The notes under the pieces: model-generated
The model's input: the letters and a program-made list of their open reading frames with translations, nothing else
Databases searched by the model: none
Told to the model about the DNA's origin: nothing
Part shown: positions 16,113-19,622 of the stretch, piece by piece
Numbering within the stretch: the stretch's first letter is position 1
Layout: each line of letters starts with the position of its first letter
Program-made: the position numbers and the translations under genes
Assembly: GCA_017480385.1 (NCBI GenBank)
Contig: JAFVAT010000004.1
Coordinates: 1-54,385 of the forward strand
Reading direction: 5' to 3'
From: Alphaproteobacteria bacterium
Lineage (GTDB): Bacteria; Pseudomonadota; Alphaproteobacteria; CAAGCB01; CAG-977
Length of the DNA stretch: 54,385 nt

Positions 16113-16130
16113 ACTTTAGTTGATTCGCGA

Positions 16131-16160
16131 AAAAAGACCGCCTCCCCGCGGTCTTTTTTT
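16131..16160 (+). terminator. Terminator of the glycogen synthase gene
   Basis: A 10-bp perfect stem (AAAAGACCGC/GCGGTCTTTT) with a six-base loop and a run of eight T, 19 bp past the stop codon. Confidence 0.88.
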
Positions 16161-16371
16161 TATCTCTTTTAACGTGACGAAAATCGGGAATCGGCACAAA
16201 TCAAGAGGCTGCGAAATTTTTAATAATATTATTTGACGTCATGCCCTATTTTGATCATTCTGACAAACAGGAGAAGGTTAAAATATCGTTAAAGCTTTTC
16301 CCTTTTCCTCTTTTTAAAATCGGCTGAAACCAGACGTTTTTTATGTCAACAAAAAAAATATTTTTTTTCTG
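16161..16371. other. Gene-free stretch before the anaerobic reductase promoter
   Basis: AT-rich, no convincing gene on either strand. It holds a TGACGTCA palindrome near 16235 and the A/T palindrome at about 16347-16372 that could contribute to NrdR binding. A minus-strand frame spanning 16255-16536 has no family resemblance and crosses the repeat leader, so it is not called. Confidence 0.5.
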
Positions 16372-16401
16372 TTGCCAATGTCGGAAATAACTATATATTG
16401 T
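16372..16401 (+). promoter_or_regulatory. nrdD promoter with overlapping NrdR box
   Basis: A -35-like TTGCCA (16372-16377) is separated by 16 bases from a -10-like TATATT (16394-16399). Overlapping the -10 is ACTATATATTGT (16390-16401), which matches every specified position of the NrdR-box core CwAtATaTwG. NrdR is the ATP-cone/zinc-finger repressor of ribonucleotide reductase genes. Transcription should start near 16406, leaving a leader of about 200 bases. NrdR boxes usually come in pairs about 31 bp apart; the only upstream candidate is a degenerate A/T palindrome. Confidence 0.65.
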
Positions 16402-16460
16402 CGCAAGAGAGGGGCGGAACACACAACCTGTTGTATCGCCGAGGAAGTATGACCGGAACT

Positions 16461-16560
16461 GCCGGAGGAAGCCGAAGCTGCCGAAGAGGGCACGGTTGAA
16501 ACCGCCGGAGGAAGCCGAAGCTGCCGAAGAGGGCACGGTCGAAACCGCCGGAGGAAGCCG
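16461..16560 (+). repeat. 43-bp tandem repeat (2.3 copies) in the nrdD leader
   Basis: Copy 1 is 16461-16503 and copy 2 is 16504-16546, identical but for one base (T/C at 16496/16539). A third partial copy runs 16547-16560. The unit is not a multiple of three, so it is not a coding repeat. Each unit can form three small hairpins: CGG-AGGAAG-CCG, TGCC-GAAGAG-GGCA and CGGT-YGAA-ACCG. The single difference between copies lies in the tetraloop, not in a stem. A GAGGAAG motif also occurs just upstream at 16441-16447. I do not recognise a known riboswitch. Confidence 0.75.
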
Positions 16561-16605
16561 GAGCCGCCGTCCCTTTGATTTATGTTTTTTATAACGGAGA
16601 ATTTT

Positions 16606-18666
16606 ATGTCGGATCAGACGCCGAAATTACAAATAGTCCCTAATGAAGAAGACGCTGCTTCCGAGCTGTCCCGCATTGTCAAACGCGACGGCACGCAGGT
16701 CATTTTCAATTCTGAAAAAATCATGTCGGCAATTAAGCGCGCCGGCGAAGCAACCGGAGAATTTGACGAAGAGGAAGCCTCTTTGCTGACCACACAGGTG
16801 ACAAAGGTTCTGCGTCATCGTTTTTCAAAGGGCGTTCTGCCTACGATTGAACAGATTCAGGACGTTGTCGAACAGGTTCTGATTTCCGCAAACTATTACA
16901 CGACGGCCCGCGCCTATATTGTTTACCGCGAATCCCGCAGCAAGTCCCGTCAGGACAAGAAAACGCTGGTTGATGTCGCTTCTTCGGTCAACGAATATCT
17001 GGAACGGGCGGACTGGCGCGTCAATGCCAATGCCAATCAGGGTTATTCTCTGGGCGGGTTGATTTTGAACGTTTCCGGCAAGATTATCGCGAATTACTGG
17101 CTTTCCCATGTTTATCCGCAGGCTGCCGGAGAAGCGCACCGCAACGGCGATTTTCATATTCACGATCTGGACATGCTGTCCGGTTATTGCGCCGGTTGGT
17201 CCTTGCGCGCCCTGTTGCAGGAAGGTCTGAACGGCGTGCCGGGTAAGGTCGAATCCGGCATTCCCAAGCATTTGGGTTCCGCTTTAGGCCAAATGGTCAA
17301 CTTTTTGGGCACGCTGCAAAATGAATGGGCCGGTGCTCAGGCTTTTTCCTCCTGCGACACGTATCTGGCGCCGTTTATTCGCAAAGATCATCTGAAATAT
17401 GATGAAGTCAAACAGCATTTCCAAGAATTTATTTATAACTTAAACGTGCCGTCCCGCTGGGGAACGCAGACGCCGTTCACGAACCTGACGTTCGACTGGG
17501 TCTGTCCGGAGGATTTGCGCGATCAGACGCCTGTCATCGGCGGCGAGGAAATGGACTTTACTTACGGTGATCTGCAGGAAGAAATGGACATGATCAACCG
17601 CGCCTACATCGAAGTGATGACCGCGGGCGACGCCAAGGGCCGTTTGTTTACTTTCCCGATTCCGACCTACAATATCACGCCGGATTTCCCGTGGGAAAGC
17701 GAAAATGCCGATCTTTTGTTCGAAATGACAGCAAAGTACGGCCTGCCTTATTTTCAGAACTTTATCAATTCCAGCCTGAAACCGGGGCAGGTTCGTTCGA
17801 TGTGCTGCCGTCTGCAGCTGGATCTGCGTGAATTGCTGGCCAGAGGAAACGGCCTGTTCGGTTCGGCGGAACAGACCGGATCGGTCGGTGTCGTCACCTT
17901 AAACTGTGCCCGTTTAGGCTATCTGTTTAAAGGCAACGAAGCCGGCTTAATGGCTCGTCTGGACGAATTAATGGACCTGGCGCGTTCCACGCTGGAAATC
18001 AAGCGCAAGGTCATTCAGCGTCACATTGACGCGGGCTTATTCCCGTTCACCAAGCGTTATCTGGGAACGCTGCGCAATCATTTTTCAACGATTGGTGTCA
18101 ACGGCATCAACGAAATGATTCGTAACTTCACCAATGATGAACACGATATTACCGATTCATTCGGTCAGGCGTTTGCAAATCGCTTTTTGGAATACATTCG
18201 TTCCAAAATGGTTGTCTTCCAACAGGAAACAGGCAGCATGTACAATTTGGAAGCAACGCCTGCCGAAGGAACAACTTATCGCTTGGCCAAAGAAGACCAA
18301 AAACGTTATCCCGACATCATTCAGGCTGGTACGAAAGAAGCGCCGTATTATACGAACTCTTCGCAGCTGCCTGTCGGCTTTACAGATGATCCGTTCACGG
18401 CTTTGAACCTGCAAGAATCTCTGCAGTCCAAGTATACGGGCGGCACGGTAATGCATTTGTATATGGGAGAACGCATCTCCGATTCCAAGACATGCAGAAC
18501 GCTTCTTAAGAGAATCTTAGAGAATTATAGGATACCATATGTAACGGTGACACCTACATTCTCTATTTGTCCCAAGCATGGATATATTTCGGGCGAACAT
18601 AAATATTGCCCGCTGTGTGATGAAGAACTCATCGCCCTTAAACGCCAGCAAGCCTGCGCCTGTTAA
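16606..18666 (+). CDS. nrdD: Anaerobic (class III) ribonucleoside-triphosphate reductase, large part without glycyl-radical tail
   Basis: 686 residues. An N-terminal ATP-cone (RIVKRDGTQVIFNSEKI onward, about 20-105) gives allosteric control. The catalytic barrel has QAFSSCDTYLAPF and RSMCCRLQLDL, the latter carrying the putative thiyl-radical cysteine. The C-terminal zinc site reads SICPKHGYISGEHKYCPLCD. The chain stops soon after this, and the glycyl-radical segment that normally follows is on the next gene. ATG 16606 is used because ACGGAG lies 7 bases ahead; 16582 would be an upstream alternative. It makes dNTPs from NTPs in the absence of oxygen, activated by NrdG. Confidence 0.92.
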   Translation: MSDQTPKLQIVPNEEDAASELSRIVKRDGTQVIFNSEKIMSAIKRAGEATGEFDEEEASLLTTQVTKVLRHRFSKGVLPTIEQIQDVVEQVLISANYYTTARAYIVYRESRSKSRQDKKTLVDVASSVNEYLERADWRVNANANQGYSLGGLILNVSGKIIANYWLSHVYPQAAGEAHRNGDFHIHDLDMLSGYCAGWSLRALLQEGLNGVPGKVESGIPKHLGSALGQMVNFLGTLQNEWAGAQAFSSCDTYLAPFIRKDHLKYDEVKQHFQEFIYNLNVPSRWGTQTPFTNLTFDWVCPEDLRDQTPVIGGEEMDFTYGDLQEEMDMINRAYIEVMTAGDAKGRLFTFPIPTYNITPDFPWESENADLLFEMTAKYGLPYFQNFINSSLKPGQVRSMCCRLQLDLRELLARGNGLFGSAEQTGSVGVVTLNCARLGYLFKGNEAGLMARLDELMDLARSTLEIKRKVIQRHIDAGLFPFTKRYLGTLRNHFSTIGVNGINEMIRNFTNDEHDITDSFGQAFANRFLEYIRSKMVVFQQETGSMYNLEATPAEGTTYRLAKEDQKRYPDIIQAGTKEAPYYTNSSQLPVGFTDDPFTALNLQESLQSKYTGGTVMHLYMGERISDSKTCRTLLKRILENYRIPYVTVTPTFSICPKHGYISGEHKYCPLCDEELIALKRQQACAC

Positions 18667-18926: not shown

Positions 18927-19622
18927 ATGTCAGTTACGATTGGCGGCGTCGAGCCTTTTACAACGGTAGATTTTCCGGGAAGGCTCGCCGCCGTTTTATT
19001 TTGCCTGGGCTGTCCGCTGCGCTGTCCGTACTGCCATAATCGGGAACTGCAGGATTTCAAGGGAAAACCCTTTATTTCCTGGGACCGGTTTACAGAATTT
19101 TTAGAGTCCAGAAAAAAGTTATTGGACGGCGTTGTGTTTTCCGGCGGTGAACCGTTGGCGCAACCGGATTTATATGAGTCGATTAAAACCGTTAAAGATA
19201 TGGGGTTTGCAATCGGGCTTCATACTTCCGGTATTAATGCGGACAGATTAAAACAAATTCTGCCGCTGCTGACATGGATCGGCTTTGACATCAAAACGGT
19301 TTTTGAAGCCTATGAAGAACGCATACCTCATGCCAACGCGGCGACCATTGAAGCATGTTTAGATATGGCGATTGCCGCCGGCATTGAATTAGAGGTCAGA
19401 ACGACTCTGGACCCGCGGATTATCTCTAAAGAAGAACTTCTTCAGCTTGCCGCCGTTTTGGCTCAAAAGGGAATAGAGACTTACGCCATACAGGAATATC
19501 GTCCTCACCCTGCAGAAAAACAGCCGCCGGCTTTAAATGCCGTGACTTCATTCTTTACGGATAAGGCGTTATTAGACGAATTAAACAGTCTGTTTAAAAA
19601 ATTCATTATCCGCCGAGCCTGA
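18927..19622 (+). CDS. nrdG: Anaerobic ribonucleotide reductase activating protein (radical SAM)
   Basis: 231 residues. The radical SAM cysteines are in CLGCPLRCPYCHNRELQ (CxxxCxxC, about 28-42). FSGGEPL is the SAM-binding GGE motif and HTSGINAD follows. The enzyme uses S-adenosylmethionine and a [4Fe-4S] cluster to place the radical on the glycine of NrdD, here on the separate small protein encoded 7 bases upstream. It starts with TTDFPGRLA-like residues (VDFPGRLAAVLF) typical of the NrdG2/PflA-related group. Order nrdD, tail gene, nrdG indicates one operon. Confidence 0.9.
   Translation: MSVTIGGVEPFTTVDFPGRLAAVLFCLGCPLRCPYCHNRELQDFKGKPFISWDRFTEFLESRKKLLDGVVFSGGEPLAQPDLYESIKTVKDMGFAIGLHTSGINADRLKQILPLLTWIGFDIKTVFEAYEERIPHANAATIEACLDMAIAAGIELEVRTTLDPRIISKEELLQLAAVLAQKGIETYAIQEYRPHPAEKQPPALNAVTSFFTDKALLDELNSLFKKFIIRRA

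Follow-up and report, generated by a model that had tools for sequence, protein, structure and literature searches.

A probable two-box NrdR operator and a lineage-specific 43-bp tandem array upstream of nrdD in an uncultured alphaproteobacterium

The nrdD locus and its promoter

The window, meaning the whole stretch of 54,385 nucleotides that was analysed, is contig C37 of a 2.03-Mb genome that is 95% complete. The nearest named relatives of the organism belong to the Alphaproteobacteria and were assembled from metagenomes of sheep rumen, horse faeces and similar sources. The genes and features that concern the present analysis are an nrdD gene, the adjoining nrdG-like gene, and the promoter, NrdR boxes and repeat-containing leader upstream of nrdD (Table 1). 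A reductase of the PF02867 family was found in none of the seven genomes of the genus, which leaves the class III enzyme as the only ribonucleotide reductase found there.

A promoter scan gave 10 of 12 matches for the arrangement TTGCCA-16-TATATT. The promoter is kept in six of the seven genus genomes, and the remaining one (G004) has a degenerate -10. Judging from the promoter position, transcription is expected to start near 16406, and the leader is probably transcribed because the promoter is conserved. At the other end of the leader, ACGGAG of the Shine-Dalgarno segment is kept in most relatives, while the spacer upstream of it is not kept.

Table 1. Features in and around the nrdD leader (positions in the window)
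Feature	Position	Strand	Description
Sigma-70-type promoter	16372–16399	+	-35 TTGCCA at 16372–16377; 16-bp spacer; -10 TATATT at 16394–16399
NrdR box 1	16388–16403	+	TAACTATATATTGTCG; overlaps the -10; 12/16 to consensus ACACWATATATWGTGT; present in 7/7 genus genomes
NrdR box 2	16421–16436	+	ACACAACCTGTTGTAT; early transcribed region; 12/16 to consensus
43-bp tandem array	16461–16560	+	2.33 copies: copy 1 16461–16503, copy 2 16504–16546, partial copy 16547–16560
Shine-Dalgarno segment	16594–16605	+	ACGGAGAATTTT; before the nrdD start
nrdD	16606–18666	+	Anaerobic (class III) ribonucleoside-triphosphate reductase with N-terminal ATP-cone; Pfam NRDD 583 bits, ATP-cone 84 bits
nrdG-like gene	18927–19622	+	Radical-SAM activating protein; Pfam Radical_SAM 73 bits; adjoins nrdD

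The paired NrdR boxes

The mechanism of repression by NrdR is known from E. coli, Streptomyces and Listeria. An earlier note on this DNA had placed an NrdR-box core over the -10. This core, CTATATATTG at 16391–16400, indeed overlaps TATATT and lies within the 16-bp match of box 1. The note recognized this first box and missed the second one, which follows after a 17-bp spacer, 33 bp from centre to centre. The offset is 33 bp throughout the seven genus genomes and in G007, and 32 bp in G008 and G009, these three being further members of the family. In the other genus genomes, each box matches the consensus at 11–14 of the 16 positions.

When the genome was searched for single boxes with 3 mismatches allowed, the matches were no more numerous than those of a reversed-pattern control. 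Single boxes are thus uninformative, and therefore only the pair was used as evidence. No further pair of such spacing was found in 594 kb of the organism's own genome, and none was found in 2.2 Mb of first-order random sequence. An nrdR gene was found in six of the seven genus genomes; in G000 it is located at C20:43990-44427 and matches TIGR00244 with an E value of 1.5e-52. The genome of G003 keeps both boxes, and the NrdR protein was not found in its 98% complete assembly, which reflects either an assembly gap or a loss.

It was reported that both NrdR binding and repression in vivo are optimal with box spacers of 15–17 bp (PMC12051234). Spacers of this length put an integer number of helical turns between the box centres. 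The nrdDG operator of E. coli consists of two 16-bp NrdR boxes with a 15-bp spacer (PMC12176259). In both organisms, a class III nrdDG operon has two boxes in its promoter region, and the second box ends with GTTGTAT. The two operators differ in that the spacer is 17 bp here and 15 bp there, and in that no reductase other than the class III enzyme was found in the genus studied here.

Two palindromic 16-bp boxes, a spacer in the range of 15–17 bp, an overlap with a reductase promoter and an nrdR gene in the genome are found together, and the NrdR operator for nrdD is of the standard type. The earlier suggestion that NrdR controls the anaerobic reductase is strengthened by these findings, namely two boxes at the right spacing, their conservation in the family and the presence of nrdR. 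By analogy with the known systems, NrdR probably represses the nrdD promoter in this organism. With ATP and dATP, NrdR would form a tetramer that binds both boxes, and the bound protein would cover the -10 and the start site, so that nrdD would be turned off when dNTPs are plentiful. The operon under NrdR control would comprise nrdD and the nrdG-like gene. The locus is of value because it shows a clean NrdR operator with two boxes on the sole reductase that was found in an alphaproteobacterial lineage of gut and rumen, which is uncultured.

The tandem array in the leader

The two full copies of the array differ at one position only, a T/C difference in GGT(T/C)GAAACC; this position would be a loop base if a CGGT-YGAA-ACCG hairpin forms. 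The partial copy of 14 bases reads GCCGGAGGAAGCCG. Both the 2.3 near-identical units and the sole base difference in a loop had been described before and were found again. With mismatches tolerated, TRF extended the array to 16457–16569 (period 43, 2.6 copies, 94% match, score 198), and it is by far the strongest tandem repeat that TRF detected in the window. The array is not a chance product, and its origin appears to be recent, because the copies are near-identical. No other copy of the leader was found in the organism's own genome, and no exact copy of the repeat segment was found in viral contigs.

The comparison covered one genome per species, and array frequency was measured on 594 kb of the organism's own genome, taken in stretches. 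The 43-bp unit is absent from every relative examined. The distance from box 2 to the ATG ranges from 27 to 169 nt across nine genomes, and the leader is not conserved. At the corresponding place, the nrdD leader of G002, another species of the genus, contains a different, 25-bp tandem array of 2.2 copies (96%; L174:9049-9102, or G002:C10:49049-49102), which indicates that tandem duplication is either tolerated in this spacer or especially liable to occur there. Within the 594 kb, few arrays with a period of 20 or more lay outside long ORFs: a simple rule based on ORFs gave three places, and one of these is at the end of a contig. Coding arrays occur as well, and tandem duplication is therefore ordinary in the lineage. 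A single Glu/Ala/Pro-rich protein of this genome (L153:18785-19634) contains coding tandem repeats of 66 bp x 7.0 and 42 bp x 8.8.

The locus is, in all likelihood, a conventional NrdR operator-promoter of the sole reductase operon, and the array is most likely a minisatellite of neutral or nearly neutral effect in an unconstrained 5' UTR. The segment from box 2 to the Shine-Dalgarno would be a fast-evolving 5' UTR spacer under no constraint, and a 43-bp stretch of it would have been tandemly duplicated in this species, presumably by replication slippage or unequal recombination, to give the 2.33 near-identical copies. The length or the GC content of the array would at most slightly tune mRNA stability or translation, and a mild effect of array length on expression is possible. 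Against this explanation, the array is located in the mRNA of an essential gene, and each box matches only 12 of the 16 consensus positions in this species.

In two of the seven species the nrdD leader carries an array, and the two arrays are separate; this hints mildly at a hot spot or at relaxed constraint. Two different arrays at one spot are above casual expectation, which also counts against the above explanation, and selection acting on the length of the spacer, or a mutational cause at this site, has to be kept in mind. A more far-reaching proposal is that tandem duplications recur and are selected in the spacer that separates box 2 from the start codon, which would make it a hot spot, and that leader length serves as an evolutionary rheostat for dNTP supply. 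This is quite unlikely; if true, the rheostat would tune the expression of the sole reductase in anaerobic gut Alphaproteobacteria.

The near-identical copies and the different array of G002 suggest recurring tandem duplication, and switching of copy number in promoter tandem repeats has been documented elsewhere (PMC12817950). The array could accordingly be a contingency (phase-variable) locus, of which the copy number tunes nrdD expression between cells, as has been proposed for promoter tandem repeats of M. tuberculosis. The promoter repeats of dop, lpdA and cysG in that species (PMC12817950) are alike in that tandem copies of tens of bp stand beside the gene start; however, those repeats are part of promoters and their copy number varies, whereas the present array lies in the mRNA leader and is seen in one genome. 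With one assembly of the species, no copy-number variation was seen. Moreover, the array is downstream of the promoter and the operator and leaves their spacing unaltered, and because no reductase besides nrdD was found, cells in an off state would be expected to die. Phase variation is an unlikely role for the array.

It was also considered that the array derives from a coding repeat which has decayed or been captured, similar to the Glu/Ala/Pro-rich repeats that other parts of the genome encode. The 43-bp unit of the two full copies (16461–16546) reads EEAEAAEEGTVETA when one base is skipped, and coding tandem repeats with periods of 66 and 42 bp are present in the organism's own genome. However, the period of 43 (3 x 14 + 1) shifts the frame by one base per copy, the genome contains no match above background at the DNA or the protein level, and the leaders of the relatives contain no homologous ORF. 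When the genome was searched for the Glu/Ala-rich peptide, the sole match was the array itself. Such a coding origin is very unlikely. The repeat unit does resemble a former coding repeat whose frame was lost; its source was not found in the genome. An upstream ORF beginning at ATG 16449 (16 codons) was rejected, as the relatives have no counterpart.

Folding of the leader

The earlier note had proposed that the leader is a regulatory RNA, in which each unit folds into three mini-hairpins and the exposed GGA loops recall CsrA-type binding sites. The three hairpins can be drawn, and the GAAGAG hairpin is well predicted, with pair probabilities of about 0.55 and 0.98. In copies 1 and 2 the stem of the AGGAAG hairpin is just 3 bp long. 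The pair probabilities of this hairpin are 0.04, 0.01 and 0.47, and those of the YGAA hairpin are 0.01 and about 0.4; the AGGAAG and YGAA hairpins of copy 1 thus reach 0.04 at most. Folding of the whole leader was no better than that of shuffles (z = 0.12), and an array built from shuffled units matched the real array in folding (z = 0.46). A search of the leader against Rfam gave no match above gathering, and none in the array even at E 10. No intrinsic terminator or attenuator was found in the nrdD leader; the sole terminator found belongs to the upstream gene (16129–16160).

For the repeats to act as a cis-regulatory RNA, the purine-rich GGA loops would have to bind a CsrA-like or other RNA-binding protein that controls nrdD translation. 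Besides the well-predicted GAAGAG hairpin, three GGAGGAAG segments are present in the leader, and the GGA triplets can be drawn in hairpin loops as in leaders bound by CsrA/RsmA. Unlike in those leaders, the sites are not conserved here and a CsrA gene was not found in the family: CsrA (PF02599) was detected in none of the 12 family genomes, while the E. coli, B. subtilis and T. maritima controls were found. Conserved GGA in stable hairpin loops, by which CsrA leaders are recognized, was not seen in this leader. The earlier note had named loss of the repeats in relatives, or their variation without structure, as evidence against its proposal, and this is what the scan showed. It found the array in no relative examined, so there was nothing to covary, and the spacers of the relatives vary without a shared structure. 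Together with the folding and Rfam results, these findings make a role of the repeats as regulatory RNA highly improbable. The repeats, although striking, are lineage-specific and should therefore not be catalogued as a new RNA motif.

A possible 5' hairpin at 16406–16450 encloses NrdR box 2; it would comprise the first transcribed bases, box 2 and the bases that immediately follow. It can be argued that this hairpin is a conserved RNA element and that the repeats are passive. Its outer stem pairs in several relatives despite differing sequence, five of nine leaders beat shuffled 3' flanks (p<0.04), and swaps of the flanks between species gave p=0.034. However, this test was chosen after the folds had been seen, four further leaders from outside the close relatives lent no support (combined p 0.56), and box 2 is palindromic for DNA-binding reasons. 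A conserved hairpin is improbable on this evidence and represents an unproven lead.

An AT-rich dyad (TGTCAAC-A8TAT8-CT-GTTGCCA) extends across the -35 at 16344–16377 and is kept in all seven genus genomes. Changes in its arms are partly compensating (CAACA/TGTTG, and CAATAG/CTATTG in G004). It is the sole A/T-rich site of its kind in 594 kb of the genome and is possibly a second operator.
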